Both the position numbers and the translations under genes were made by a program. Source: Deltaproteobacteria bacterium (lineage in GTDB: Bacteria; UBA10199; JACPAL01). From it: DNA of 64,000 nucleotides. Below, piece by piece: positions 1 to 19,956 of this stretch (position 1 is the stretch's first letter; every line of letters begins with the position of its first letter). The stretch lies in contig JACPAL010000007.1 in assembly GCA_016180855.1 (NCBI GenBank), forward strand, positions 1-64,000. Reading direction: 5' to 3'. The notes under the pieces are model-generated. The model ran no database searches and had not been told where the DNA came from. It saw only the letters and a list, made by a program, of their open reading frames with translations.

Positions 1-1613
1 AGCTCGCCCGTTTCTACATCGATATCTTCGGAGAGTAACCCCAAATGGTTGGCGTGCGAAAGGATATTTTCAAAAAGGAGGCGGCTTCGGTCCTTTTCGC
101 CGATCGTATAAAGCGCCTTGGCGAGCCAAAGGGAGGCGAGAATAAAGGCGTTTTTCGGTTTCCCGAAATCGTCGGCGTTGGTGTAGCGGAAGGCGAAACC
201 GTTCTGCATCAGCGATTGTTCGCACTGGCGGACTGTGGCAATCCAGCGGGGATCGTCCTTTTTCAGAAAACCGTACCTCTCCATCAGCAACAGGCCGACA
301 TCCAGATGTTCAGAACCATAAGATTGCGTAAAACTTCCGACGGACCTGTTCCATCCCTTTTCCTCAATCTCTCCCCGGATCTGGTCGGCGATCGCCTTCC
401 AATTGGAAACAGCGTAATCCTTTCCCAACCTCTGAGCGATTTTGATCCCCCGATCAAGAGCAACCCAGGAAAGGGTTTTTGAAAAAGTAAAATGTGCCTT
501 CCGATGCCGGAACTCCCAAATCCCGGCGTCTTCCGTATGCCAGTCCCTCGCGATCGTATTGACGAGGAATTTGACAAGCGACCAGACTTCATCCGGCATC
601 TTTTCAAATTCGTAGTGAAGGTAGTAGAGATAGAGTGTGTTTACGATCTCACCGAAGATATCGTTTTGTTGCGTATGACAGGCGTTGTTGCCGATCCGAA
701 CCGGGCTGGAGTTTTTATATCCCTTGAAATGGCTTAGGATTTTTTCCTCGAGATCGGCCCTCCCACCGATTCCATAAACGATCTGAACCTTGGTCTGCTT
801 GCTCTCAAAGAGGTGCAGGAGAAAATGAATAAAAGCCCGTGCCTCCTCGAAGTGGCCGATACTCTTCAAGGCCTCCAACATGAGGGAGGCGTCACGGAGC
901 CAACAGTAGCGGTAGTCCCAGTTTCTTCCCTCTCCGATGACCTCCGGAAGGGAGGTCGTCGGTGCCGCAATGATCGCACCGGTTTCCTCATAGGTCATCA
1001 GTTTCAGGGTGAGTGCCGACCGGAGGACTGTCTCGGAATAGAGGTTCGGTAATCGGCAATGGCCCGACCAGGTTTCCCAGTAGCCTTTTGTCTTTTCAAA
1101 CATCTCATGGGCATAGACGAGTGTGGGGGCCTCGATCTTTTCGTGGTAGGTTAGGAGAAGGTATTCTTCCCGCTCAAGTGGGAGGGGGCTCTCTGTCAGG
1201 ACGCCGTTCAGAGGGAGGCTTGAGTAGAGAAAGAGGCTTTCGAGGCCGTTGGAGGCGGTGATGACCGCCTGTCTTTTTCGGACGGACGTCTCGCCTTGGG
1301 CGTAGTTCATTTTGGGTTGAAATGAAACCTTGAGAAGAGACCGACCGCGCAGTGGTTTCAAAATCCTGATGATCTCGACGGGCCTCCGGTAGTCCGTCCC
1401 TTCTCGGTAGCGAGGCATGAAATCAAGCAAAGCAAAGGCGTTTTCCCCGTCATCGAATTCCGTTTGAAGGATGTTGGTTTGGGGCAGGTAGACCTGCGAA
1501 ATTCTTGCGGCGCCGGCAAGAGAGACCTGGAAATGACCCCCTTGGGCGTCCAGTATCCTGGCGAAGGCGGAGGGGCTGTCGAACTTGGGGAGGCAGCACC
1601 ATTCAATGCTCAA
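1..1613 (-). CDS. Glycoside hydrolase family 15 protein (glucoamylase/trehalase type), partial
   Basis: The minus strand stays open from the left edge to about 1613 and encodes a GH15 enzyme, expected to release glucose from alpha-glucans or trehalose. Seen: SIEWCCLPKFDSPSAFA near the start, then AAPTTSLPEVIGEGRNWDYRYCWLRDAS (around 870-990), the hallmark GH15 core, and ANHLGLLSEDID near the edge, which matches the family's C-terminal part. The last ~30 codons lie outside the window. The N-terminus is odd: family members carry about 25 residues before the SIDW motif, but here the only nearby start is TTG at 1613, overlapping the end of the upstream arsC-like gene. Both genes look cut at this junction. 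Family assignment is secure; the start is not. Confidence 0.88.
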   Translation of the reverse strand, partial: MSIEWCCLPKFDSPSAFARILDAQGGHFQVSLAGAARISQVYLPQTNILQTEFDDGENAFALLDFMPRYREGTDYRRPVEIIRILKPLRGRSLLKVSFQPKMNYAQGETSVRKRQAVITASNGLESLFLYSSLPLNGVLTESPLPLEREEYLLLTYHEKIEAPTLVYAHEMFEKTKGYWETWSGHCRLPNLYSETVLRSALTLKLMTYEETGAIIAAPTTSLPEVIGEGRNWDYRYCWLRDASLMLEALKSIGHFEEARAFIHFLLHLFESKQTKVQIVYGIGGRADLEEKILSHFKGYKNSSPVRIGNNACHTQQNDIFGEIVNTLYLYYLHYEFEKMPDEVWSLVKFLVNTIARDWHTEDAGIWEFRHRKAHFTFSKTLSWVALDRGIKIAQRLGKDYAVSNWKAIADQIRGEIEEKGWNRSVGSFTQSYGSEHLDVGLLLMERYGFLKKDDPRWIATVRQCEQSLMQNGFAFRYTNADDFGKPKNAFILASLWLAKALYTIGEKDRSRLLFENILSHANHLGLLSEDIDVETGE

Positions 1614-1974
1614 GCCACTCTTCTTCGCCGGGAATGGCCACGGGGTCCTCCAAGGGCCAGAGGATTTTTTTATCTGTTTTGAGTATTGAAGTGGCCCCCC
1701 ATGCCGGTTTGGCAAGGACAATCACCCGATCAAAATACATCTCACACACTTCCGCAAGCATCTTGGACTTCTGACTTGAGATGTCGATCCCGATCTCCCT
1801 CATGACCTCAATGGTAATTCGATTCAACTCACCAGGATAAAGACCGGCGCTTGTTATTGAAAAACTTCCCGGAAGGAACGCACGGGCCAGCCCCTCCGCC
1901 ATTTGACTCCGACAAGCATTGTATTCACAAACAAAGAGAATTTTCACCGGGGCAAGTGTATTTTGCCCTCCCAT
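1603..1974 (-). CDS. LMW-phosphatase-type arsenate reductase, C-terminally shortened
   Basis: 123 residues of the low-molecular-weight tyrosine phosphatase/ArsC fold. The P-loop CEYNACR followed by SQMAEG is intact near the N-terminus, and the DP motif region (WPLEDPVAIPG) is present. Family members normally continue about 20-25 residues beyond the GTEE-like segment as an amphipathic helix; here the protein stops at GEEEWLEH. That is exactly where the GH15 frame begins, which suggests a deletion that fused two gene ends. A GTG codon at about 1950 is an alternative start (VKILFVCEYN), since the 1974 ATG lacks a clear Shine-Dalgarno. It may still be partly functional as a phosphatase or reductase, but could be decaying. 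Confidence 0.75.
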   Translation of the reverse strand: MGGQNTLAPVKILFVCEYNACRSQMAEGLARAFLPGSFSITSAGLYPGELNRITIEVMREIGIDISSQKSKMLAEVCEMYFDRVIVLAKPAWGATSILKTDKKILWPLEDPVAIPGEEEWLEH

Positions 1975-3402: not shown

Positions 3403-3702
3403 TCACACCCTCTCCCCTGCCTTCTGAACCAGAAACTCAAACAGTTTTTCTTTGAATTCCGGATCGAGCATCGGCCTCTGAAACGTCTTTACCAACGCCG
3501 CCGTCTTGCGATAGGCCGCGATGAAACGCTGACAGTTTTTACAAGCCTTGAGGTGACGTTCTACTGCCTTCATGGTCGATGAATCCAAGGACCCTTCCAA
3601 AAAGTCGTAGGCGAACTGCTCGACCTCTTCACAGGTAGGTAGCCCCATGAGGCCAAACATGGCCCGGATCATTTTGTGCTTAATGGACATATCTTTCCTC
3701 AA
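3403..3702 (-). CDS. Zinc-finger anti-sigma factor (soluble)
   Basis: 99 residues with a zf-HC2/ZAS signature: CEEVEQFAYDFLEG, followed by the metal site HLKACKNC (H-x3-C-x2-C). It overlaps the 3' end of the ECF sigma gene by 23 bp, the usual arrangement for translationally coupled sigma/anti-sigma pairs. There is no transmembrane segment, so it is a cytoplasmic ZAS-type regulator that probably senses redox or metal state through its zinc-binding cysteines (inference). The C-terminal part (KTAALVKTFQRP...) is helical and would not span the membrane. An internal ATG at the MSIKHKMI segment is an alternative start. Confidence 0.8.
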   Translation of the reverse strand: MRKDMSIKHKMIRAMFGLMGLPTCEEVEQFAYDFLEGSLDSSTMKAVERHLKACKNCQRFIAAYRKTAALVKTFQRPMLDPEFKEKLFEFLVQKAGERV

Positions 3703-4303
3703 TCCTTTTCCTTAAAAACAATCGCGCCCGATGCACTCGATTTTTCATCGCCGGTTTGGTCAGTTCCAAAATCTTGCAGACCTCCTCTTCCGGCAGTTGC
3801 TCGACATCCTTCAAGAGATAGGCGGTCTTTAAGTCATCGGGCAGAAGCTCGATCGACTCCTGGACAAATTGTTGAAACTCCTTCTCGACAAATTTCTCAT
3901 CCGGGAGCTTTGACCAGTCTGAGAAATTTTCCAGATGGATACCGCTTTCGTATTTTGGCAAGACCTCCTCCCACGAAACCGTCTTCTTCCCTTTATCGGG
4001 CCGAAGCCTCATCAACGACTCGTTCACGGTGACCCGATAGAGCCAGGTATATAATGAAGACGAGCCTTCAAACGTGTCGATCTTTTCCACCACCTTGAGT
4101 AACACCTCCTGAACAATCTCTTGGGCTTCTTCGGGGCGTTTCACGAACCGGAGTGAAAGCCTGTACAGTTTATCCGACCAGCGGGAGATCAATTCACGAA
4201 AGGCCCAATCGGCCTTCTCGCGGAGGCCCTGAATCAGTTCCTTCTCACTGAGATTAGATGCGGCGGCTGGCTGAAAATCTCGCGATTTTGGAAGAGTTTC
4301 CAC
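3680..4303 (-). CDS. ECF-type RNA polymerase sigma-70 factor
   Basis: 207 residues. Region 2 (FRELISRWSDKLYRLSLRFVKRPEEAQEIVQEV, residues ~35-68) and region 4 (LPDDLKTAYLLKDVEQLPEEEVCKILELTKPAMKNRVHRARLFLRKRI, ~150-200) are both clear, with the D/E-rich core-binding helix and the ECF helix-turn-helix. It directs RNA polymerase to a stress regulon that cannot be read from this sequence. It is the first gene of a two-gene unit with the zinc anti-sigma factor downstream. It is divergent from the ATPase gene at 4392; the 88-bp gap holds that gene's promoter, and no clear self-type ECF promoter could be recognised. Confidence 0.9.
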   Translation of the reverse strand: METLPKSRDFQPAAASNLSEKELIQGLREKADWAFRELISRWSDKLYRLSLRFVKRPEEAQEIVQEVLLKVVEKIDTFEGSSSLYTWLYRVTVNESLMRLRPDKGKKTVSWEEVLPKYESGIHLENFSDWSKLPDEKFVEKEFQQFVQESIELLPDDLKTAYLLKDVEQLPEEEVCKILELTKPAMKNRVHRARLFLRKRIEERYVH

Positions 4304-4391: not shown

Positions 4392-5555
4392 GTGTTCCAA
4401 AGATCAATCAACCTATCGAAATCGCACTCTTTTTTTTTGTTCGGACCAAGAGGAACCGGAAAATCGACCCTCTTAGATCGTTTTTTCGAGCCCGAAGAAA
4501 GTGTGGTGTTGAATTTGCTGGATTTTGAACTTGCCAACGAACTGGCAAGCTATCCCAATAATCTGCTGAACCGTCTCGCCCCCTACGCGGGTAAAAGGGC
4601 CTGGGTGGTGATTGATGAAGTCCAAAAGGCGCCCCCGTTGTTGGACCTGGTGCATAAGTTTATCAAAGAAAAACGGTTCAAATTTGCCCTGACCGGTTCA
4701 AGCGCCAGAAAACTGAAACGGGGCGCGGCGAATCTTTTGGCCGGAAGGGCCTTTATTTACCATTTGTTTCCACTGACGGTGACTGAGCTGCAAGCCCGAT
4801 TTTCTCTTGATGAAGCGCTGAAGTTCGGAACACTTCCGGAGATTTTTAATTTCGAAAATGAATCGGATAAAGCGAGCTTCTTAAAGGCTTACTCCAAGAC
4901 CTATCTCAAGGAAGAGATAATGACGGAACAAATTGTTCGCAATCTGCCGCCGTTTCGCCGTTTTCTGGACGTTGCGGCCCAAATGAATACCGGCGTTATC
5001 AGTTATTCCAATATCGCGCGGGATATTCATTCCGATCCGAAAACCGTGAGCGGGTATTACGATATATTAGAGGATACCCTGCTCGGAATCAGACTTCCCG
5101 CCTACCACACGTCCATCCGAAAACAGCAAAAAAAAGCTTCAAAATTTTATCTGTTTGACACGGGTGTTGCGCGAGCTTTGGCCGGACAGGTTGATTACGA
5201 TTTGGTCCCACGGAGCTTTGAATACGGACAATTGTTTGAGGCATTTATTATCAATGAGATTCATCGTCGCCTCACCTACCAAGGCAAGCAATTTAAGCTG
5301 TCCTACTTGCGGGTCAAGGAAGACCTGGAGATCGATTTGATTATCGAACGTGGAAAATTGGCTCCAACATTGGTAGAAATCAAGTCCGCGAACAGGGTAG
5401 ACGAACGTCACGCAAAGGGACTTCTGACACTGGGGAGTGATTTTAAATCACCCAAACAATATTTAATCTCGAATGATCCGGATCAAAAGCGTTTCTCAAC
5501 TGTTTCAGCCTGTCCATGGGCTGAGGCGATCGATCGTATCGTAAGTGACGCGTAA
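4392..5555 (+). CDS. AAA ATPase with DUF4143 domain
   Basis: 387 residues in the widespread ATP-binding/DUF4143 family, whose cellular role is unknown. Seen: Walker A FGPRGTGKSTLL (residues ~18-30), Walker B AWVVIDEVQKAP (~75-85), sensor ALTGSSARKLKRG, and the C-terminal nuclease-like DUF4143 domain with EIDLIIERGKLAPTLVEIKSA (~315-335), a D-x(n)-E-x-K arrangement. Such proteins are usually solitary, strain-variable and often compared to addiction or defence ATPases. The GTG start abuts the operator/promoter, giving a leaderless transcript. A bidirectional terminator follows. Divergent from the sigma-factor operon. Confidence 0.9.
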   Translation: MFQRSINLSKSHSFFLFGPRGTGKSTLLDRFFEPEESVVLNLLDFELANELASYPNNLLNRLAPYAGKRAWVVIDEVQKAPPLLDLVHKFIKEKRFKFALTGSSARKLKRGAANLLAGRAFIYHLFPLTVTELQARFSLDEALKFGTLPEIFNFENESDKASFLKAYSKTYLKEEIMTEQIVRNLPPFRRFLDVAAQMNTGVISYSNIARDIHSDPKTVSGYYDILEDTLLGIRLPAYHTSIRKQQKKASKFYLFDTGVARALAGQVDYDLVPRSFEYGQLFEAFIINEIHRRLTYQGKQFKLSYLRVKEDLEIDLIIERGKLAPTLVEIKSANRVDERHAKGLLTLGSDFKSPKQYLISNDPDQKRFSTVSACPWAEAIDRIVSDA

Positions 5556-5607
5556 GAAAGATTCTCCCGCCCGGAGAGACCTTTTCGTTCTCGGGTTCTT
5601 GCAATGA

Positions 5608-5639
5608 AAAAGCCCTCGGATAATGGTCCGAGGGCTTTT
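5608..5639. terminator. Bidirectional intrinsic terminator
   Basis: A perfect 13-bp stem (AAAAGCCCTCGGA / TCCGAGGGCTTTT) with a 6-nt loop, carrying an A-run on one side and a T-run on the other. It lies between the convergent ATPase gene and the Cys-repeat peptide gene and can serve both. Confidence 0.9.
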
Positions 5640-5659
5640 ACTTAATCGGGATCAGGGAA

Positions 5660-5947
5660 CTATTCCTTCATCGCGGTGCAGGAACCTTTCTTTCCCTCCT
5701 CCTTTTCGCCCTTCTTTTTCTTATCCTTCATCCCACTGCAGGAGCCTTCCTTCGCCTCCTCCTTCTTCTTGTCCTTCATGGCGCCACAGGAACCACCGGC
5801 GCACGATCCTCCCTTCCCCTTCTCCTCTTTCTTCTCCTGCTTGGCAGGTTCATCCCCGGCAAAGGCAAGGCTTCCTATCCCCGGGGCGAATGTCGTCGCC
5901 AGAAAACCGGCGAGTGTGAGACTGGTGATTAGCTTTTTCTTGTCCAT
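5660..5947 (-). CDS. Exported Cys-repeat peptide, candidate modified-peptide precursor
   Basis: 95 residues. A Sec signal peptide (residues 1-30, KK then LITSLTLAGFLATTF, cleavage near FA|GDE) is followed by a Lys/Glu-rich low-complexity tail. The tail repeats a GSC-x-x-MK unit: Cys49, Cys54, Cys70 and Cys90, each after Gly-Ser, three of them two residues before a Met-Lys. A good Shine-Dalgarno (AAGGAGG) precedes the ATG. The design (signal peptide plus repeated short Cys motif) recalls HvfA/bufferin-type precursors modified on cysteine. No DUF692 (MNIO) enzyme is visible here; instead a radical SAM/SPASM gene and a DoxX gene lie divergently 147 bp away. Function as a metal-binding or modified peptide is inference. 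Confidence 0.75.
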   Translation of the reverse strand: MDKKKLITSLTLAGFLATTFAPGIGSLAFAGDEPAKQEKKEEKGKGGSCAGGSCGAMKDKKKEEAKEGSCSGMKDKKKKGEKEEGKKGSCTAMKE

Positions 5948-6016
5948 TTTTTCCTCCTTTTGACAGGGTTAGATGACGAGACCGACGAAAAGTCTCATGG
6001 AGTGAATCAAAAATCC

Positions 6017-6034
6017 ATATGATCAATATCATAT
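6017..6034. promoter_or_regulatory. Palindromic operator candidate in the divergent promoter region
   Basis: Perfect inverted repeat ATATGAT-CAAT-ATCATAT, sitting about 70 bp from the peptide start and 61 bp from the radical SAM start. It is placed to control both divergent genes. The AT-rich 7-4-7 dyad is loosely like Fur-family or MerR-type sites; the regulator is not identifiable. Confidence 0.5.
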
Positions 6035-6094
6035 CGGAACTTTCCGAAGAAACTTTTATTGAGAAGAGTCATCTAATCGTCTTGAGAGGCCACC

Positions 6095-7205
6095 ATGCAT
6101 TGTTATTTTGCCGTCAGCAAGGTTTGTAATCTCCGGTGCAGCTATTGTTATGTCTCGGAATATAACAAGAGCCACCAGGACGACTACGATCGACGGGCGC
6201 TGTCGGCTGCGGAGAGATTTGTTGAGAAAGCAGGGACAGAAAAACTCCCGCTCGAGAGCGTCACACTGCATGGGGCTGAACCGACGATCCTCACAGCCAG
6301 GACGCTGGGCCAAATCGTAAATCTCTTTGCGAAACCAACTGACAACGATGTTCGAATCCAGTCCAACGGGACCCATTTTACACCGAAATATCTGGATGAC
6401 TTGCTGGGGGTAATACAGGATCCCGCAAAATTCTTTATCGGGATCAGCATGGACGGCAGCGCCGTGATCCATAATCCACAAAGAAACGACACGTGGGATC
6501 TCGTCTTTCGGAACATCATGGAACTCCGCGCCCGGAATTTTCAGACAGGGCTCCTGGCAGTCGTCACGAGCTTGACCCTCAAACACCTGAAGGAATTTGG
6601 GCTCTGGGTGGAATACATGAGACCGCTTGTCCACAGCATCACCTTTAAGCTTGGTGAGCATGGATTTGGGCTAACCGGCGTTCCAGCCGGACCTCTGCAT
6701 CCAGGACGGCAACGAATGTGAATTTTATGAATTCGACATCGATGGAAACTGCTACTCGTGCAACAAGAACTACCTCGAGACCGGGGTCTTTGCGAACTGG
6801 TTCGAGGAGCCGTTTGAAACGGTAGTGTCCAAGAGGCAGAGCCTCTACGGATCACGGCCTGTCGATCCGGAGTGTCAGTCCTGTCCCTACCTTTCGATTT
6901 GTCACAGCGGCTGTCCGCTCACACGGGAGGAAGGGAAATCGGTCGATTGCCGGATCAAGAAGGAGATCTATGCGCGGTTTGCAGAAGAGGGGATCGACCC
7001 CGAACTTTTCTTCAAGATTGGGAAAAGATCGACAGTAGAGACAATAAAGACAGCAAGATTTCTGAATCTGTTATTGAAGAACCGGCAGATGACTATTGGG
7101 GAGGCCCAGGAGACGCTTCAAATCACCAACGAGGAGAGGAATGATTCACTCGAATTGATCAAAAAACTTTACAATGAGGGCGACCTCAAGGAGGATTTAT
7201 GTTGA
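6095..7205 (+). CDS. Radical SAM/SPASM peptide-modifying enzyme, frameshifted
   Basis: About 370 residues in two frames. The first frame (6095-6680) has the cluster motif CNLRCSYC (C11, C15, C18), HGAEPT in place of the usual GGEP, and SNGT. The second frame (from about 6681 to 7205) carries the SPASM auxiliary-cluster region: GNCYSC, then CQSCPYLSICHSGC (C-x2-C-x5-C-x3-C) and a final VDC, plus a helical C-terminal tail. The two halves join only if one base is gained or lost around 6672-6692, where CCGGC...GCCGG forms a small hairpin. SPASM enzymes typically modify ribosomal peptides or sulfatases. The exported Cys peptide next door is the obvious candidate substrate. Start ATG follows AGAGG. 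The frameshift may be real, programmed or an assembly error. Confidence 0.82.
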
Positions 7206-7687
7206 CCAAACTTAAAGCCATCTACGAAAAATGGTTGCTCTGCACGGGGATATTGGCAAGCTTCTTTCTTCTACTCACAAGAATCAACTGGGGGTGGCAG
7301 TTTTTGGTTACGGGCAAAGGGAAGCTCGCGAATCCCGGTCCGGTGATCGAATTCTTTCAAGGACTCGGGATACCGTTTCCGACCTTCAACGTCTATCTGG
7401 TCGGCCTGACGGAATTTTTGGGTGGCCTCTTTTTGATTTTGGGGCTCGGATCCCGGATCATCACGATCCCTTTGGCGATCACGATGTTCGTCGCCTATCT
7501 GACCGCCGATCAGGCCGCCTTTTTCTCATTCTTCTCCGATACGGAGGCGTTTGTGAAGGCGACACCGTTTCCGTTTCTGATCACGGTCCTGACGGTCCTC
7601 TTCTTCGGAGCGGGTACCTTCTCCGTCGACAGGCTCATCGGAAGATTTTTCTCAAAATCCTACTCCTGCGCGGAGGATAAAGGTTGA
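7199..7687 (+). CDS. DoxX-family membrane protein
   Basis: 162 residues with four predicted membrane helices (around residues 15-30, 62-84, 88-106 and 120-140) and the DoxX-type WGWQFLVTGKGKL and GLGIPFP-like segments. It overlaps the radical SAM stop by seven bases, so the two are translationally coupled. DoxX proteins in HvfABCX-type operons (HvfX) accompany Cys-peptide maturation, which makes this partner informative, although the family also occurs in many unrelated oxidoreductase contexts. Probable inner-membrane location. The downstream LCAT gene overlaps its stop. Confidence 0.85.
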   Translation: MLTKLKAIYEKWLLCTGILASFFLLLTRINWGWQFLVTGKGKLANPGPVIEFFQGLGIPFPTFNVYLVGLTEFLGGLFLILGLGSRIITIPLAITMFVAYLTADQAAFFSFFSDTEAFVKATPFPFLITVLTVLFFGAGTFSVDRLIGRFFSKSYSCAEDKG

Positions 7688-9069
7688 TTCCAATGGAGTC
7701 TCGACGGCTTTGCAGAAACTTTATTTTCCTTATTTTTTGCCTACTGGTATTGATGACCCTTGTCTCCTGCGCGGTGACACGACCAAATTTGAATCGACTC
7801 TATGGGGATCTTGCCCGAAGGAAACATTACCCTGTGATCCTGATCCCGGGTGTCTTCGGGTCCCGTCTGGTCAATAAGAAGAGCGGGAAAGAGGTCTGGC
7901 CCGGCGGGTTCTTTAACCTGATGACGGGTCGCCACTTCAACGATCTGGCGATCCCGGTAACCTCCGAAGACGTTCATAAAAACCGCGATTCCATGCAGCC
8001 GGCCGGTCTCTTTTTCGAGGCGGTGGGGCACGACTTTTACGGGGAAATTATCAAGACCCTCGAAGGACCGGGTGGTTACCATTGCGCGCCGGCCGACCGA
8101 CCGAGACCGGAGACCGATTGCTACCTTTTCTCCTGGGATTGGAGGAGGGATTTCACCGAGGCGGCCGCGGAGCTTGACCGTTTGATTGAGAGCATCCGGC
8201 GTCGCGCTGGAGACACGCACCTCAAGGTCGACATCGTGGCCCATAGCGCCGGTGCCCTCGTGGCACGCTACTACCTCCGTTTTGGGGGAGAAGATGTGCT
8301 CAACCGGGAAAACGCCGTCGTCACTCAGGCGGGTGCCGCAAAGGTCCGCAAGGCGGTCCTGATCACGCCGCCCAACTTCGGATCGGTCACCGCCCTTCAG
8401 GTGGCGATGATGGGGTATCGGATCAGCCCCTTCGGGACAATACAGCCGGAGACACTCGCGACTTTCCCGAGCACCTACCAGCTCCTGCCACATCCGGATC
8501 GCGACTGGATGGTCGATGAGTACGGTCAAAAGATCAGCATGGACCTCTACAACATCGAGACATGGGAAAAAGGCTCCTGGTGGATTTTTGACCCGAAGAT
8601 CCGGCGTCGCATCGGCGAAAAATTTCACCATCCGGAAGATGCCAATCGCTATCTTCTATCTCTCGAACGCCTGATGACCCAATCGTTGGTCCGAGCCCGG
8701 TGGTTTCATCATTATCTCTCAATTCCTGTCGGAAAATCACCCACACATTATATCGTCTTTGGAGGGGACTGTCATCAGACACCGGCCCGGTGCCTGATGG
8801 AAACGGTTCATGGAAGGGTCATGATCCGGCTCCGGCCTGACGAAGTCGTCCGCCAGATTGAGGGTGTTGATTACGAGCGATTGATGTTGGAGCCGGGAGA
8901 CGGAAGGGTCACCAAGGCCTCGGTCCTGGCGAGGACGACGCTTGATCCGGAACAGAAGCAGACGGGGTACTTTCCGATTGAGGCGTTTGTCTTTCTTTGC
9001 CGCGATCATGAAGAGATGCCGGGAGACATCACGTTTCGGGATAACCTCTTAAACGTGCTGCTCTATTGA
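7684..9069 (+). CDS. LCAT-family lipase/acyltransferase lipoprotein
   Basis: 461 residues. N-terminal signal ending in lipobox LVSC (Cys29), so a lipoprotein. Then comes the LCAT/PDAT signature HYPVILIPGVFGSRL (~50-65), nucleophile elbow AHSAG (Ser188) and GDGRV (~400) carrying the likely catalytic Asp. The family moves or hydrolyses acyl chains of phospholipids. TTG at 7684 has GGAGG at a good distance; ATG at 7693 is an alternative. It overlaps the doxX stop, so it is probably the last gene of the radical SAM transcription unit, though a role in that system is unclear. A repeat-bearing 160-bp gap follows. Confidence 0.85.
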   Translation: MIPMESRRLCRNFIFLIFCLLVLMTLVSCAVTRPNLNRLYGDLARRKHYPVILIPGVFGSRLVNKKSGKEVWPGGFFNLMTGRHFNDLAIPVTSEDVHKNRDSMQPAGLFFEAVGHDFYGEIIKTLEGPGGYHCAPADRPRPETDCYLFSWDWRRDFTEAAAELDRLIESIRRRAGDTHLKVDIVAHSAGALVARYYLRFGGEDVLNRENAVVTQAGAAKVRKAVLITPPNFGSVTALQVAMMGYRISPFGTIQPETLATFPSTYQLLPHPDRDWMVDEYGQKISMDLYNIETWEKGSWWIFDPKIRRRIGEKFHHPEDANRYLLSLERLMTQSLVRARWFHHYLSIPVGKSPTHYIVFGGDCHQTPARCLMETVHGRVMIRLRPDEVVRQIEGVDYERLMLEPGDGRVTKASVLARTTLDPEQKQTGYFPIEAFVFLCRDHEEMPGDITFRDNLLNVLLY

Positions 9070-9129
9070 ATCAGCCAGATTTGAAGACCTTTTCGTTTCC
9101 ACGGCATCAAAGCGTATAGAAACCAAAAA

Positions 9130-9230: not shown

Positions 9231-10730
9231 ATGAGTAAACACTATCATTTGATCGTTATCGGCGCCGGGTCGGGGGGACTCGTTGCGGCGGCTGGGGCGG
9301 CAGGACTTGGGGCCAAGGTTGCATTGGTCGAGAAGCACAAAATGGGGGGTGATTGCCTCAACACCGGTTGTGTCCCCTCGAAGGCGATTATCCGAACGGC
9401 GAAACTGATTTATGATGCGAAAACCGGAAGTCGGTTTGGTCTTTCCGATCTTAACGCCGATATCAACCCTTCAACGCCGCTCAGGGTTGATCTTTCCCAA
9501 ATCATTAAATCGGTCCAATCGGTTCAGGGAAAATTGGAGCCGCATGACTCACCCGACCGGTTCCGAAAATTGGGAGTCGATCTCCACTTTGGGACCTTTC
9601 GATTCATCTCTCCGTACGAGATCACCGATGGAACTGTTACCTTATCGGCAAAACGATTTGTCATTGCGACCGGTGCCTCTCCCTTTGTGCCACCGATCAA
9701 GGGGATCAAAGAAATCTCGATTCTCACAAGCGATAATGTTTGGAGCCTCAAGGAAATTCCAAAACGGTTAGTGGTCTTGGGTGGAGGCCCGATTGGTGCT
9801 GAGCTGACTCAAGTCTTCGCCCGACTTGGATCGAGGGTCACTGTCGTTGAAATGTTGGACTCCCTTCTCATCCGGGAGGATGCGGAGGTTTCACAAGCCA
9901 TCAAAGAACGCTTTATAAAAGAAGGAATCGAGGTCTTGACCGGTCACAAGGCGGTTGAAATCAACCCTTCGACTCTGCTCAGAGTTGATGCTGAGCGCAG
10001 TCGAAGCATCAAGAAATCGGGTGAGTCCTTTGAACTGATGGCACAAGAAGGCGAGAAGGAAAAACGAATCCCATTTGACCAGATTCTTGTCGCGGTCGGC
10101 CGTGCCCCAAACGTGAACAACCTCGATTTGGAAAAGGCGGGAATAAGATTCTCCAGAAAAGGAATCGCGGTGGACGATTACCTCCGAACATCCGCCAAAC
10201 ATATCTATGCCTGTGGCGATGTCGTCGGTCCTTATCAATTCACCCACACCGCCGACTTTCAGGCGCGGCTGATCTTACGAAATGCACTCTTTCCCGGCAG
10301 ATCAAAGATCGACTACCGGGTCGTTCCGTGGTGCACCTTCACCGATCCGGAGGTGGCGCGGGTTGGCTTGAACGAAAAAGAAGCCAAGGAAAAAGGTCTC
10401 CACCATGACATTTATTCTTATTCCTTCAAAGATTTGGATCGTGCCGTCTGTGACCGTGAGGACGAGGGATTCATCAAGGTCTTGACCCAAAAAAGCTCGG
10501 ATCAATTATTGGGGGTGACGATTGTTGGACCCCACGCCGGGGATCTGCTTCACGAACTCGCGTTGGCGATGCATCAAAGGATCGGACTGAAAAAAGTCGC
10601 CTCGATGATCCATGTCTATCCGACACTTGCCGAAATTTCAAAGCGCGTTGGCGATGCGTATCAGAGAACGAGACTCACGCCTCGTTACAAAAAGTGGCTG
10701 GAAAGATATTTCCGATGGAGATTCGGATGA
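9231..10730 (+). CDS. FAD-dependent pyridine nucleotide-disulfide oxidoreductase (mercuric reductase/lipoamide dehydrogenase type)
   Basis: 499 residues. FAD-binding GAGSGG (residues 11-16), redox-active disulfide CLNTGC (C42/C47), NAD(P)-binding GGGPIGAEL, second FAD motif YACGDV, and a C-terminal dimer domain with HVYPTLAE. The C-terminal vicinal cysteines of true MerA are absent, so the mercury-reductase label is only by family. Two repeat-derived stretches interrupt the normal alignment: INPSTPLRVD (~77-87) and INPSTLLRVDAERSRSIKK (~243-262), encoded by palindromic REP-like DNA yet in frame. It is the first gene of the arsenosugar-type operon (ATGA overlap with the next gene); similar oxidoreductases often sit next to TVP38 proteins. 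Confidence 0.88.
   Translation: MSKHYHLIVIGAGSGGLVAAAGAAGLGAKVALVEKHKMGGDCLNTGCVPSKAIIRTAKLIYDAKTGSRFGLSDLNADINPSTPLRVDLSQIIKSVQSVQGKLEPHDSPDRFRKLGVDLHFGTFRFISPYEITDGTVTLSAKRFVIATGASPFVPPIKGIKEISILTSDNVWSLKEIPKRLVVLGGGPIGAELTQVFARLGSRVTVVEMLDSLLIREDAEVSQAIKERFIKEGIEVLTGHKAVEINPSTLLRVDAERSRSIKKSGESFELMAQEGEKEKRIPFDQILVAVGRAPNVNNLDLEKAGIRFSRKGIAVDDYLRTSAKHIYACGDVVGPYQFTHTADFQARLILRNALFPGRSKIDYRVVPWCTFTDPEVARVGLNEKEAKEKGLHHDIYSYSFKDLDRAVCDREDEGFIKVLTQKSSDQLLGVTIVGPHAGDLLHELALAMHQRIGLKKVASMIHVYPTLAEISKRVGDAYQRTRLTPRYKKWLERYFRWRFG
9462..9491. repeat. In-frame REP-like palindrome inside the oxidoreductase gene
   Basis: Perfect inverted repeat with 9-bp arms ATCAACCCT / AGGGTTGAT and a 12-nt loop. 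It encodes the INPSTPLRVD insertion and belongs to the same family as 9130 and 9960. Confidence 0.7.
9960..10009. repeat. Second in-frame REP-like palindrome inside the oxidoreductase gene
   Basis: CTTCGACTCTGCTCAG (9967-9982) pairs with CTGAGCGCAGTCGAAG (9991-10006), with two mismatches and an 8-nt loop. It is preceded by ATCAACC as in the first copy and encodes residues ~244-260 without breaking the frame. Confidence 0.75.
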
Positions 10731-11389
10731 TGGTTCGACAAGCTCACCACATTCCATTAGTCAGCGTTATTGTCCCTGTTCATCAAGAGGATCGGCATTT
10801 GGTTAAAAATCTCACTCAACTCCAAGGGGACCCACGAATCGAGGTCATCGTGGTTGAAGCAGAAAAGGTCGGTGTAGCCAACCGCGCCTATCAGATGAAC
10901 CTTGGCGCGTGCCAGGCACGTGGTCAACTGCTTGTTTTTCTTCACGTTGACACCTTAATTCATCCCAAGGATCTGTGGATAACTTATCAAAGACTAAAAG
11001 AGGATCCTTCCTTCGTCGGAGGCGTCTTTCGGTTCACTCTCGATACCCAATCTCCCAAGGCGCGCCTTCTTGAATTAGGGGTTTTACTCCGGCAACAAAT
11101 TTTCCATCTCCCTTACGGTGACCAGGCGATCTTCATTCGAAGGTCACGCTTCGAAGCGATGGGAGGTTACCCGGAGGTTCCTCTCTTGGAAGATGTTTTG
11201 TTTATCCAAAAGATGAAGAAACAGGGAAAACTCTTTTTCTGTTCAAAACCGGCAATCACAAGCGTCCGTCGTTGGGAGCGCCATGGATATCTCAAGACGA
11301 CAGTCGTGAATTTGGCGACAATGATTCTATGGAAATCGGGTGTCTCGTTGGAGCGTTTGCACACCTTCCGGAGGAGGTTTTTCTCATGA
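10727..11389 (+). CDS. rSAM/selenodomain-associated glycosyltransferase (TIGR04283 type)
   Basis: About 220 residues of a GT-A family 2 glycosyltransferase: SVIVPVHQED at the N-terminus, QMNLGACQARGQLLVFLHVDT with the metal-binding DxD-like HVD, and GDQAIFIRR plus EDVLF later. This subfamily recurs with the arsenosugar genes and is thought to help attach or process the sugar part (family knowledge). Start chosen at ATG 10727, overlapping the upstream TGA (ATGA). The first residues (MVRQAHH) come from a small palindromic repeat at 10731-10749. It overlaps arsS by four bases downstream. Confidence 0.85.
   Translation: MMVRQAHHIPLVSVIVPVHQEDRHLVKNLTQLQGDPRIEVIVVEAEKVGVANRAYQMNLGACQARGQLLVFLHVDTLIHPKDLWITYQRLKEDPSFVGGVFRFTLDTQSPKARLLELGVLLRQQIFHLPYGDQAIFIRRSRFEAMGGYPEVPLLEDVLFIQKMKKQGKLFFCSKPAITSVRRWERHGYLKTTVVNLATMILWKSGVSLERLHTFRRRFFS
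10731..10749. repeat. Short palindromic repeat at the glycosyltransferase start
   Basis: TGGTTCGACAAGCTCACCA, an imperfect palindrome of the TTCGA...GCTCA type. It supplies the first codons (MVRQAHH) of the glycosyltransferase, where family members normally begin directly at the ISVIIP strand. Confidence 0.5.
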
Positions 11390-12435
11390 CCCCGTTCCAA
11401 GATACATTGAAACGGCATCGTCTCAGTCTGACACGACAGAAGACCGAGATTTTGCAGATCAACGTCGGCAAGCTGTGTGATCTCGCTTGTCTCCACTGCC
11501 ATGTGGAGGCGGGGCCAAAACGCAAGGAGATTATGGAACGGAAGACTGTCGAGCGGCTCATGGAACTTTTGAAGAAGTCACCTGCTGTTCAGACCGTTGA
11601 TCTGACCGGCGGGGCGCCAGAACTCAACCCGAACTTCCGCTACTTGGTCGAAGAATCCAGCAAGATTCTAACCAGCCGCAAAGCGGCGTTGAGGGGGAGT
11701 CTCCATCCGGCTTTGCCGGTGGAGGGGGCGACGCAAGCCCCTGTAATTGACCGGTGTAATTTGACTGTCCTCTTTCAAAAGGGACAAGAGGAGACCCCCT
11801 ATTTTCTGAAAGAACACCGGGTGCAGATCGTTGCCTCGCTCCCCTGCTATTCCAAGGAAAACGTCGAGGCACAACGGGGTCGCGGGGTCTTTGATAAAAG
11901 CATCCGGGCACTTCGGTTCCTGAATGAATTGGGATACGGAAAGGAAGGGACCGGTCTTCTCCTCGACCTTGTTTACAATCCGGTCGGTCCCTTCCTGCCG
12001 CCACCTCAATCGGAGTTGGAGGCCGATTACAAAAAAGAGCTGAAAGAACTCTTTGGAATTGAGTTTAATCACCTGTTGACCATCACCAACATGCCAATCA
12101 AGAGATTTCACGATTATTTGGAACGCCGAGGTGAGTTAGACCAATACGCAGACCTTCTCGCTACCCATTTCAACCAGGAGGCAGTCGGTCGTGTGATGTG
12201 CCGTAATCTTGTTTCCATAGGCTGGGACGGAAAAATCTACGATTGTGATTTTAATCAGATGTTGGAGATTCCGCTGGGTGGAAAGAGGCGAACAATCTGG
12301 GAGATTGAGTCGCTTGATGAATTGGTCTCAGAGTCGATTGCGTTTGCCAATCATTGCTACGGTTGCACCGCAGGAGCTGGAAGTTCGTGTTCCGGTTCAC
12401 TTGTGAAGAAAGGAGGATATCGTAATGATAAATAG
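11386..12435 (+). CDS. arsS: Arsenosugar biosynthesis radical SAM protein ArsS
   Basis: About 349 residues. The radical SAM motif CDLACLHC (C31, C35, C38), the next-strand DLTGGAPEL, and the C-terminal DUF3641 region (GWDGKIYDCDFNQML and CYGCTAGAGSSC) are diagnostic of ArsS. ArsS joins a deoxyadenosyl group from SAM to dimethylarsenic made by ArsM, building the arsenosugar skeleton (known for the family). Start ATG 11386 has GGAGGAGG upstream and overlaps the previous stop (ATGA). Residues ~96-119 are encoded by an inserted structured repeat (11671-11742), kept in frame between an SSK and an IDRCNLTVL segment. It overlaps arsM by 11 bases. Confidence 0.93.
   Translation: MTPFQDTLKRHRLSLTRQKTEILQINVGKLCDLACLHCHVEAGPKRKEIMERKTVERLMELLKKSPAVQTVDLTGGAPELNPNFRYLVEESSKILTSRKAALRGSLHPALPVEGATQAPVIDRCNLTVLFQKGQEETPYFLKEHRVQIVASLPCYSKENVEAQRGRGVFDKSIRALRFLNELGYGKEGTGLLLDLVYNPVGPFLPPPQSELEADYKKELKELFGIEFNHLLTITNMPIKRFHDYLERRGELDQYADLLATHFNQEAVGRVMCRNLVSIGWDGKIYDCDFNQMLEIPLGGKRRTIWEIESLDELVSESIAFANHCYGCTAGAGSSCSGSLVKKGGYRNDK
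11671..11742. repeat. Multi-stem structured repeat, copy A (in frame in arsS)
   Basis: About 72 bp: hairpin GCCGC-AAA-GCGGC, then CTCCA...CCGGC-TTT-GCCGG...GGAG, then GGGGGCGACGCAAGCCCC. Copy B at 12448 shares both flanks almost identically (first 29 bases identical), while the middle stem differs by compensatory changes. Confidence 0.8.
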
Positions 12436-13558
12436 TCTTAGCGAAAACCAGCCGCAAAGCGGCGTTGAGGGGGAGGCTCCAACCCGCCGTTGCCAAGGCG
12501 GGGTGGAGGGGGCGATGCGAGCCCCTAGAGAAGACGTGAAAAATTATTATGGCAAGGTCCTCAGGGGAAAGAAAGACCTCAAGACCAACGCCTGTTGCGG
12601 CACCGATAGTTTCCCGGCTCATCTCCGTGAGATTGTAAAGATGATCCATCCGGAGATTATTGAAAAATGTTACGGCTGTGGCTCACCCATCCCATCAGTA
12701 TTGGCGGGGCTGACGGTTTTGGACCTTGGGTGCGGAACGGGACGCGATTCCTATATCCTTTCCAAGTTGGTCGGTCCAGAAGGTCAGGTCATCGGTGTTG
12801 ATATGACCGATGAACAACTGGAAGTGGCGCAACACCATCTCCCCTTTCAAATGAAACAGTTTGGATTTTCGAAACCGAACGTCCGTTTTTTGAAAGGGTA
12901 TATTGAGGATCTTGAATCATTGGGGATTGCAAATCATTCAGTTGATCTGATCGTTTCCAACTGTGTCATCAACCTCTCGCCCGACAAGCGGCGCGTCTTC
13001 TCCGAAATCTTCCGCATTTTGAAACCGGGCGGGGAACTCTATTTCGCCGATATTTTTACCGGGCGCCGGATGCCGAGGGAATTGTCGGAAGATCCAGTCC
13101 TCCTGGGCGAATGTCTCGGCGGCGCGCTTTACCTCGAAGACTTTCGCCGATTGCTTCTTGAGGTTGGATGCCACGATTATCGTGTTACCTCCCGTTCCAA
13201 AATTGAATTGAAAAATCCGGAGGTCGAGGCAAAAGCGGGGATGATCGACTTCTGGTCGATGACGATCCGGGCGTTCAAGCTGAAACTCGAAGACCGATGT
13301 GAGGATTACGGACAGATCGCTACTTACTTGGGAACGATTCCGGAATCACCTCATGCCTTCTTTCTTGATGACCACCACCTGTTTGAAAAAGGGCGCTCGG
13401 TTCCAGTCTGTAGCAATACAGCGGCAATGCTTCAACAGACAAGGGTTGCCTCGCACTTCAAAGTAACCGGCGATCTCTCGACTCACTATGGACTTTTTGA
13501 TTGCGGTGGTACAACGGCCACCGACAGGGAAAGAGTTTCGTCAGGGGGATGTTGCTGA
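12425..13558 (+). CDS. arsM: Arsenite S-adenosylmethionine methyltransferase ArsM
   Basis: 377 residues. KTNACC (C57/C58) is the arsenic-binding pair typical of ArsM, motif I is VLDLGCGTGRDSY (~98-110), conserved KCYGCGSPIP lies just before it, VSNCVINLSPDK follows, and the C-terminus ends SGGCC. It methylates trivalent arsenic using SAM and feeds ArsS, its immediate upstream neighbour. AAAGGAGG precedes the ATG at 12425. Residues ~8-34 derive from structured repeat copy B, giving an unusual N-terminal extension before the normal VKNYYGKVL start. The next gene starts on its stop codon (TGATG). Confidence 0.92.
   Translation: MINSLSENQPQSGVEGEAPTRRCQGGVEGAMRAPREDVKNYYGKVLRGKKDLKTNACCGTDSFPAHLREIVKMIHPEIIEKCYGCGSPIPSVLAGLTVLDLGCGTGRDSYILSKLVGPEGQVIGVDMTDEQLEVAQHHLPFQMKQFGFSKPNVRFLKGYIEDLESLGIANHSVDLIVSNCVINLSPDKRRVFSEIFRILKPGGELYFADIFTGRRMPRELSEDPVLLGECLGGALYLEDFRRLLLEVGCHDYRVTSRSKIELKNPEVEAKAGMIDFWSMTIRAFKLKLEDRCEDYGQIATYLGTIPESPHAFFLDDHHLFEKGRSVPVCSNTAAMLQQTRVASHFKVTGDLSTHYGLFDCGGTTATDRERVSSGGCC
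12448..12527. repeat. Multi-stem structured repeat, copy B (in frame in arsM)
   Basis: 80 bp, same architecture as copy A at 11671. The central stem is longer (CCCGCC...GGCGGG), while the outer GCCGC-AAA-GCGGC hairpin and the final GGGGGCGATGCGAGCCCC are conserved. It lies within the first 35 codons of arsM. Confidence 0.8.
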
Positions 13559-14130
13559 TGAACGAACTTCTCATCTTTGCCAAATATCCCGAACCGGGAC
13601 GGGTCAAGACGCGACTTGCGCGAACTGTCGGTCCTGTAAAAGCGGCCCTCCGTTATCGGGGCATGGTCGAGATGGTTATGCAAAAGAGTCTTCCCTTGAA
13701 TGGTGAGTACCAACGGGCTCTCTGTTTTGATCCTCCCGAAAGGGAAAACGATTTTAGAAAATGGTTTCCTTCACTCGATTTGAGGCGACAAGGAGGTGGG
13801 GATTTGGGACAACGAATGTCAGCCGCTTTTCAAGAGTCGTTGGCAAAGGGTTCGAATCGAGCGGTGTTGATCGGCACCGATTGCATCGAGATCAACCGAT
13901 CTCTTTTATGTGAGGCCTTTGATCGTCTGGATAAGGCTGATCTTGTCCTCGGCCCGGCCAAGGACGGAGGTTATTATTTGATCGGGATGAAGAAGACGCA
14001 TCCCTTTCTTTTTGAGGGGATCCCCTGGAGTACGGAGAAGGTCCTTGATGAGACTCTTGAAAAGGCCAAGAGGGACCGCCTCAAGGTTGAACTGTTCAAA
14101 ACACTCTCGGATCTCGATGAAGAATTTTAA
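13558..14130 (+). CDS. rSAM/selenodomain-associated transferase (TIGR04282, DUF2064)
   Basis: 190 residues of the GT-A-like DUF2064 family: ELLIFAKYPEPGRVKTRLA at the N-terminus is the family signature, followed by LGQRMSAAFQ, VLIGTDCIEI and LGPAKDGGYYLIGMK. These nucleotidyl/glycosyltransferase-like proteins co-occur with ArsS/ArsM and with the TIGR04283 transferase in arsenosugar clusters. Start ATG 13558 overlaps the arsM stop and has AGGGGG upstream. The next gene begins 14 bases before its end, so the operon is tightly coupled. Exact acceptor is not known from sequence. Confidence 0.9.
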   Translation: MNELLIFAKYPEPGRVKTRLARTVGPVKAALRYRGMVEMVMQKSLPLNGEYQRALCFDPPERENDFRKWFPSLDLRRQGGGDLGQRMSAAFQESLAKGSNRAVLIGTDCIEINRSLLCEAFDRLDKADLVLGPAKDGGYYLIGMKKTHPFLFEGIPWSTEKVLDETLEKAKRDRLKVELFKTLSDLDEEF

Positions 14131-18803: not shown

Positions 18804-18823
18804 AGGTGGTTAGAGAGGAAAAT

Positions 18824-19534
18824 ATGAAGAGGACACGGTTTGCCGAGGAGCAGATCACGGGAATTCTGCGCAGAGTCGTTGCCGAGGCGGTCGGCACGGC
18901 CCTGCTTCTAACGGCCGTTGTCGGATCGGGAATTATGGGGGAACGGCTCGCCGGCGGAAATCTGGCCGTTGTCCTGTTGGCCAATAGTCTTGCGACAGGT
19001 GCCACTCTCGTTATCTTGATTCTTATTTTCGGAGAGGTTTCCGGGGCACACTTCAATCCAGCAGTCACGCTTGTTCTTGGGCGACGGGCGAACATGTCAT
19101 GGGGCCAGATTCTTTATTACATGATCGCCCAGGTACTGGGTGCCATGGGGGGTGTTTGGATCGCCCATGCGATGTTCGGAGAGCCAATCCTCATGGTTTC
19201 AAGTCATGTTCGTGAGGGATACCCCCAAATCTTCGCCGAGTCTATTGCCACCTTCGGACTGCTCTTAACCATCTTGAGTTGTGTCCGGAATCACCCTCGC
19301 GCGGTTCCCGCGGCCGTCGGACTCTATATCATGGCCGCTTACTGGTTTACCGCCTCCACCTCTTTTGCAAATCCGGCTGTTACATTGGCGCGTGGTCTGA
19401 CGGACACATTCACGGGAATACGCCCCCAAGACATACCCGGGTTTATTGTCGCACAACTCATCGGGGCCATATTCGCGATGTTTTTATTCCGATTCCTATT
19501 TCCCGATAAGGACTGCTCGCAAGAATCGTTATGA
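18824..19534 (+). CDS. Aquaporin/MIP channel, probably arsenite-conducting (AqpS-like)
   Basis: 236 residues, six-helix MIP fold with two NPA loops: HFNPAVTL (N78-A80) and FANPAVTLAR (N183-A185 with the filter Arg190). Coupled to an arsenate reductase by an ATGA overlap, which is the AqpS-ArsC arrangement known from rhizobia, where arsenite made by ArsC leaves by the channel down its gradient. Start ATG 18824 (MKRTRFAEEQ) has AGAGG upstream; in-frame codons before it lie in the repeat. No ArsR gene is adjacent. Confidence 0.9.
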   Translation: MKRTRFAEEQITGILRRVVAEAVGTALLLTAVVGSGIMGERLAGGNLAVVLLANSLATGATLVILILIFGEVSGAHFNPAVTLVLGRRANMSWGQILYYMIAQVLGAMGGVWIAHAMFGEPILMVSSHVREGYPQIFAESIATFGLLLTILSCVRNHPRAVPAAVGLYIMAAYWFTASTSFANPAVTLARGLTDTFTGIRPQDIPGFIVAQLIGAIFAMFLFRFLFPDKDCSQESL

Positions 19535-19956
19535 CGATTGTCCTTTTTGCATGTGTTCATAACGCAGGTCGCTCTCAGATCGCGGCAGCATTCTTTAATG
19601 CGCTTGCCGATCCAGGAAAGGCAAAGGCCCTCTCGGCGGGGACAAAACCAGCGGAAAAGATTCATCCCGAAGTGGTGGAGGTGATGAGAGAAGTTGGCAT
19701 CGATCTCTCTCGTATGAAGCCCCAAAAGTTCACCGATGAATTGGCGAGAAAGGGACAGATGCTGATTACTATGAGTTGCGGTGAATCTTGCCCTCTCGTG
19801 CCGGGCCTCTTTCGAGACGACTGGCAAATTTCTGATCCGAAAGGACAGACCCTTGATGCGGTGAGGTTGATTCGAGATGAGATCTCAAGAAGAGTTCAGG
19901 CACTCATCCAGAGAAAGGGGTGGGAACGACCGCGGAGAGTTCGCTCCGCATATTAA
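19531..19956 (+). CDS. arsC: Arsenate reductase, LMW-PTPase family
   Basis: 141 residues. Active-site loop CVHNAGRSQ (C-x5-R) at the N-terminus, SAGT, VMREVGIDLSRMKP, and MSCGESCPLVPG with the second and third redox cysteines typical of thioredoxin- or mycothiol/glutathione-type LMW arsenate reductases, then DWQISDPKGQ with the catalytic Asp. Reduces arsenate to arsenite for export by the aquaporin encoded directly upstream (ATGA overlap). Full length, in contrast to the shortened relative at 1603. Confidence 0.92.
   Translation: MTIVLFACVHNAGRSQIAAAFFNALADPGKAKALSAGTKPAEKIHPEVVEVMREVGIDLSRMKPQKFTDELARKGQMLITMSCGESCPLVPGLFRDDWQISDPKGQTLDAVRLIRDEISRRVQALIQRKGWERPRRVRSAY

Follow-up and report, generated by a model that had tools for sequence, protein, structure and literature searches.

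Peptides with repeated cysteine units and a Sec-type signal are normally modified by an iron oxygenase (MNIO; PF05114/DUF692), and the locus studied here raises the question of whether a radical SAM enzyme can take its place. The locus lies in a stretch of 64,000 nucleotides from a Deltaproteobacteria bacterium, which we call the window, and an earlier note on this DNA had proposed that a Cys-repeat peptide, a divergent radical SAM/SPASM enzyme and a DoxX protein belong together. We consider it probable that peptide and enzyme together make up a two-gene RiPP system, a radical SAM version of the HvfA/bufferin ("captophorin") kind, in which an ECF-controlled modification of cysteines serves metal(loid) buffering. 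The enzyme appears to replace the MNIO that normally modifies such metal-binding peptides.

The precursor peptide gene (5660-5947, minus strand) is an open reading frame of 95 residues and has the features that had been claimed for it, an exported-type N-terminus and a tail rich in Lys and Glu that carries four GSC units. The N-terminus, MDKKKLITSLTLAGFLATTFAPGIGSLAFA-, is of the Sec type, and by eye its signal features (KKK, a hydrophobic stretch and an AFA cleavage-like site) are kept in the peptides of all four genomes that carry the gene. The tail, with the motifs KGGSCAGGSCGAMK...EGSCSGMK...KGSCTAMKE, holds four Cys and consists of Cys, Ser, Thr, Met, Lys, Asp/Glu, Gly and Ala, with zero aromatic residues and zero His. 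Orthologous peptides of the form MDKKKLL... with GSC/GAC units occur in three further genomes (G003, G009 and G027). Judged from the profile, which gives orthologues in exactly four of the 46 phylum genomes (E<=1.5e-39), this reading frame is more than a chance one. In comparison with curated models, the G009 peptide matched NF050188, the HvfA model, along almost its entire length (24.5 bits versus a curated cut-off of 95; E=3.1e-5), and the peptides of the window, G003 and G027 showed no match to the HvfA or BufA models. The curated HvfA (NF050188) or BufA cut-off was reached by none of the four peptides, and the window peptide had no NCBIfam match.

When the radical SAM half of the enzyme was searched in 146 relatives, it was found in three further genomes, again G003, G009 and G027. 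In these genomes the enzyme gene is intact, with 426-485 codons, and the orthologous peptide gene is divergent from it and adjoins it in every case (3/3). The peptide profile and the radical SAM half thus mark the identical four of 46 phylum genomes, which represent four genera of one phylum, and the divergent, adjacent order is found at all four loci. The earlier note would have given up the partnership if the two genes were never neighbours elsewhere; the three additional genomes show the opposite. In the window, the divergent spacing of 147 bp was also seen as described. On the evidence of this genome comparison, peptide and SPASM genes form a genuine and conserved pair. The only further phylum genome with enzyme sequence is G001, which is also the sole other genome of the window's family among the 46; it has the SPASM half only, beside the same DoxX gene, and a profile search found no peptide there, the first half of the enzyme being absent as well. 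A contig scan across genomes with the window's enzyme half as the query gave nothing. A scan with the enzyme alignment gave generic 19-33% relatives, and among the matches listed none of these had an HvfC-type RRE (local HMM) or a peptide of the GSC kind (simple pattern). In 385 relatives and 39 genomes of another phylum, nothing was found outside the pair's own phylum.

In the window, the radical SAM half of the SPASM enzyme lies at 6095-6673 (plus strand, frame 2; residues 1-193) and contains the CxxxCxxC motif as CNLRCSYC, and the SPASM half with a shortened C-terminal helical tail lies at 6678-7205 (plus strand, frame 0; TIGR04085, 35 bits). These two halves are out of frame with each other. 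Between them, at 6674-6677, there are 4 nt where the intact homologues have 22 codons, encoding the 22 residues between GFGL and AFQPDLC, so that the window gene has lost about 62 nt net and is frameshifted, either disrupted or misassembled. Accordingly, the divergent radical SAM/SPASM gene that had been described does start at 6095, but it is not one open, intact frame. A programmed frameshift was ruled out, since about 62 nt are missing and not one base. The window's radical SAM half is 62-69% identical to the intact homologues (65% to G003, 69% to G009 and 62% to G027) and is no more diverged from them than they are from one another, indicating from the sequences that the break is either a recent event or an assembly error. 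Between the window and G001, dN/dS was 0.19 for the SPASM halves and 0.13 for DoxX. Considering that the window enzyme is frameshifted and that G001 keeps the SPASM half only, the system is decaying in the window's family. As for the family as a whole, the enzymes match PF04055 with 55-68 bits and TIGR04085 above its cut-off, and all eight SPASM Cys are invariant in the three intact members. The enzymes therefore show the marks of a radical SAM/SPASM maturase, namely the CxxxCxxC core, the full set of SPASM Cys and an adjacent peptide at 4/4 loci.

A link to the HvfA-type systems comes from the C-terminus of the G009 enzyme, which matches the RRE family PF22106 with 39.1 bits (cut-off 27). The same enzyme matches NF050145, "HvfC family RiPP maturation protein", with E=1.1e-13 over the C-terminal part of the model only, and hhalign of this domain against the phylum's own HvfC proteins gave E=5.8e-7 and a probability of 92. 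A local HMM built from HvfC domains only recognised the G009 enzyme with E=3e-14, and the same HMM gave zero matches among ORFs from 80 loci that surround unrelated radical SAM genes. Of the four enzymes, only that of G009 has a recognisably complete RRE; in the other three (G003, G027 and the window) the C-terminal domain is shortened and by itself unrecognised, which is the weakest point of the link. No DUF2063 domain is found in the enzymes, and only the RRE part (PF22106, or the C-terminal half of NF050145) is fused in G009. A phmmer search of the RRE alone against the PDB gave zero matches. An AlphaFold model of the G009 enzyme, made from 3 sequences with a mean pLDDT of 60, has a C-terminus predicted as strands followed by three helices, which looks RRE-like; this model was kept out of the proof for the RRE.

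The earlier note had seen no DUF692 gene near the peptide, and this holds throughout the window's genome (G000; 2.2 Mb, 96% complete) and, for PF05114, in the G027 genome as well. In G003, an MNIO/HvfC cluster lies 3.5 kb from the pair and has its own BufA2-type precursor directly upstream of the MNIO (NF050166, 69 bits, cut-off 60). In G009, an MNIO fused to an HvfC-like protein is encoded on another contig, also with its own precursor upstream. As two of the four pair genomes are without an MNIO, this enzyme is not required for the pair's persistence, although in G003 and G009 it could have an additional part. The proposal of an HvfA-like substrate with a SPASM enzyme in the position of DUF692 is thus supported by co-occurrence and divergent order in four genera, by the two MNIO-less genomes, by the HvfC-type RRE in one enzyme and by a promoter motif that the two genes share.

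Two further observations on the MNIO genes of this phylum can be added. The G009 fusion (L181, G009:C41:1-12000, 5239-6918) has PF05114 and PF22106 in one frame of 559 aa, with its precursor upstream at 4849-5235, and this natural fusion mirrors the artificial HvfBC fusion of PMC13419390. Family f13 of the phylum has long MNIO-adjacent precursors with Cys repeats of the KKCSGDKKCSG and KKCGAEKKCGA types, which end in a GCGAGACG/GAGSCG-type sequence (L118 2437-2952 in G019, L119 2438-2878 in G015 and L123 1005-1388 in G038); the two of these that were compared, L118 and L123, showed no HvfA or BufA match.

The shared motif is of the ECF type. Both divergent promoters have the form GARACTTTT-N10-GTCATCTAA with identical spacing, as GAGACTTTT-N10-GTCATCTAA before the peptide gene (5969-5996, minus strand) and as GAAACTTTT-N10-GTCATCTAA before the SPASM gene (6049-6076, plus strand). 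In the 2.2-Mb genome, at two or fewer mismatches, the motif was found at these two promoters only, and a reversed-pattern control at the same threshold found none. Because the motif was defined from the two window sites, the independent test lies in the other genomes. In the intergenic gaps of G003 and G009, the best site on each strand was correctly placed with the same spacing and agreed at 14-15 of 18 positions (shuffles, p<=0.0023), and the G027 locus showed no promoter motif and no sigma gene next to the pair. Over 151 kb of related loci, there were 16 sites that agreed at 14 or more of the 18 positions versus 2.6 expected, the two defining sites being counted in. A weaker copy (14/18) in the window at 9084-9111 (plus strand) lies upstream of an arsenosugar operon and has orthologous copies in G003 and G001; in G009, a copy precedes an operon for a PiT-like permease, ArsS and ArsM, and in G003 one stands at the start of the sigma gene. 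In G009, we also observed an exported CxxCH protein encoded next to the peptide gene (L005, 8775-9287), with a motif copy (14/18) directly upstream.

A candidate regulator of both promoters is the ECF sigma factor at 3680-4303 (minus strand), which is accompanied by a zf-HC2 anti-sigma factor at 3403-3702 (minus strand); at three of the loci (window, G003 and G009) the pair has ECF sigma/anti-sigma genes as neighbours. The window sigma shows 86-88% likeness to the sigmas adjacent to the arsenosugar operons of G001 and G003, versus 62% to the peptide-adjacent sigma of G003. From the motif copies and the sigma likenesses across loci, we infer that one sigma family may serve the peptide, the enzyme and the arsenic genes. 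Between the two promoters, the palindrome that had been noticed before was confirmed as ATATGAT-CAAT-ATCATAT at 6017-6034, and differing palindromes occupy the same position between the two genes in G003, G009 and G027. Judging from these sequences, a second regulator acting via the palindrome is possible.

We weighed three explanations in which the SPASM enzyme would not be the maturase on which the peptide depends. On the one hand, the SPASM gene may encode an anaerobic sulfatase maturase or a housekeeping radical SAM enzyme and be a neighbour of the peptide by chance. TIGR03942, the anaerobic sulfatase maturase family, is indeed the best family match of every member, and the anSME structure 4k37 is the top structural match and nearest solved relative. 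However, the intact members score 79-86 bits, far under the cut-off of 349, and the position of Asp277 of 4k37, which we take to be the catalytic base of anSME, is Asn in the pair's enzymes, so that a sulfatase maturase was ruled out. In addition, the HvfC RRE fused to one enzyme, the perfect co-occurrence with the peptide and the shared promoters speak against a chance neighbour in general, and we regard this explanation as highly improbable. On the other hand, the peptide may be modified by an MNIO encoded elsewhere, with the SPASM enzyme having another role. The MNIO genes of G003 and G009 would allow this, but each of them has its own precursor directly upstream, and G000 and G027 have the pair and no MNIO, so that the case that the earlier note named against itself, modification by a DUF692 enzyme, did not arise in half of the pair genomes; this explanation is very unlikely, if slightly less so than the former. 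The unmodified Cys-repeat peptide may also be a functional metal binder in itself, with the maturase being dispensable in the window's lineage. The intact peptide and promoter beside a broken enzyme in the window fit this explanation, as does G001, which is without the peptide and without the first enzyme half. Considering, however, that the enzyme is intact next to the peptide gene in three genomes and that the substitution level of the window's radical SAM half resembles that between the intact homologues, we think this explanation unlikely, though less so than the other two.

The reading that the enzyme does modify the peptide leaves the product to be considered. Judging from the composition of the peptide tail, which has no aromatic residue, Cys is the likely target and a cyclophane is unlikely to form. 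HvfBC and related MNIOs form 5-thiooxazoles (PMC13419390, PMC13097082), and SbtM, a SPASM radical SAM enzyme, is reported to form a thiooxazole from Cys with the loss of four hydrogens (PMC11002830). By analogy with these enzymes, thiooxazole is our first guess for the product and thioether the second. A different product, either a ranthipeptide-like thioether from Cys to Asp/Glu or another Cys oxidation, is a serious alternative to which we give somewhat less than an even chance. The enzyme has PapB-type ranthipeptide maturases among its closer NCBIfam neighbours (60.5 bits), and the tail is rich in Asp/Glu. However, the RRE and the type of precursor point to HvfA/HvfC systems, whose known product is thiooxazole, and there is no obvious conserved Cys-to-acid spacing in the four peptides. 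A more far-reaching version of our reading, that of a non-orthologous replacement in which a SPASM enzyme with an HvfC domain, working without O2 and under an ECF regulon shared with the arsenosugar genes, makes the metal-binding Cys groups that O2-dependent MNIOs place on Sec-exported HvfA-type peptides, is put forward tentatively and seems to us rather doubtful as a whole.

With thiooxazole as the favoured product, the system may work as follows. Metal(loid) or redox stress would release the ECF sigma factor, and both divergent promoters would fire, as their shared motif suggests. The enzyme would bind the Sec-type N-terminus of the peptide via a C-terminal RRE borrowed from HvfC, in keeping with the homology seen in G009 only. 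Its radical SAM core, together with its two auxiliary clusters, could then oxidise the Cys of the GSC units, most plausibly to thiooxazole-type heterocycles as with SbtM. The peptide would be exported by Sec, and soft metals or metalloids would be buffered outside the cytoplasm. In the window's genome, provided that the assembly is correct, this modification would have been lost with the missing part of the enzyme gene.

In MNIO systems, type-1 partner proteins (DUF2063 plus RRE) accompany signal-peptide precursors, and preliminary indications are reported that the recognition sequence includes the signal peptide; bufferin clusters also repeatedly contain genes for ECF sigma factors and DoxX proteins (PMC12452194). 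The pair resembles HvfABCX (oxazolin, Haemophilus influenzae) and the EGKCG/FonA type, which have a Sec-signal precursor, in its precursor with a Sec-type N-terminus, repeated Cys units and a charged tail (PMC13419390, PMC13097082), and it shares with HvfABCX the HvfC-type RRE (in the G009 enzyme) and an HvfX-like DoxX gene (in the window's family). Unlike in HvfABCX, a radical SAM/SPASM enzyme stands in the place of the MNIO as maturase and has the RRE fused to it (in G009), and there is no DUF2063; the repeat is GSC and not EGKCG, and the genes are divergent and not in a single operon. An MNIO within the cluster, which marks HvfABCX and bufferins, was not found at the pair, as the MNIOs of G003 and G009 belong to separate clusters. 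The bufferins BufA1 and BufA2 are likewise Cys peptides of the Sec-exported kind with ECF sigma/anti-sigma and DoxX genes nearby in a metal-stress setting, but have an MNIO with a DUF2063-RRE partner and other Cys patterns (PMC12452194). SbtM, by its description, is similar in being a SPASM enzyme with a Cys peptide as its substrate and in producing the heterocycle known from MNIOs, and differs in that no HvfC-type RRE is mentioned and its native substrate is predicted to bear selenocysteine (PMC11002830). The anSME 4k37 is close in sequence and fold and has the same SPASM Cys pattern, and it differs in the Asp277 position, in the extra C-terminal RRE of the pair's enzyme and in the genetic partner.

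In the papers cited here, the HvfA/bufferin-type systems described rely throughout on an MNIO with a DUF2063-RRE partner. A radical SAM enzyme with an HvfC RRE suggests that an unrelated catalyst can acquire the recognition module. The pair would explain how organisms without an MNIO could make HvfA-type peptides and would give a second, probably O2-independent, route to Cys metallophores. Fusions of radical SAM and PF22106 provide a handle for mining.

The DoxX-family membrane protein (7199-7687, plus strand) has HvfX (NF050144) as its nearest named family, with a score under the cut-off (68.5 bits versus 80). Its gene overlaps the end of the SPASM part, so the coupling reported by the earlier note is real in the window, but it is not conserved outside the window's family. 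DoxX relatives occur in 33 of the 46 phylum genomes, and at the loci of G003, G009 and G027 the pair has no DoxX neighbour. Since DoxX adjoins the enzyme only in the window's family, we ruled it out as a core part, and its claimed membership in the conserved system was not upheld. Directly after DoxX, the window encodes a lipoprotein-like LCAT/lipase-fold protein (7684-9069), which matches Lipase_2 just above the cut-off and no NCBIfam family.

The neighbouring operon at 9231-14130 (plus strand) encodes a MerA-like FAD oxidoreductase, a TIGR04283 glycosyltransferase (GT), ArsS, an ArsM-like protein and a TIGR04282 GT. This arsenosugar-type operon probably shares a regulon with the pair and is not part of it. 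The motif upstream of it in three genomes suggests an arsenic regulon under ECF sigma control. Two ArsC-like/low-molecular-weight phosphatase-like ORFs and an aquaporin-like ORF are also present in the window (1603-1974, 18806-19534 and 19531-19956), which is consistent with an arsenic island.
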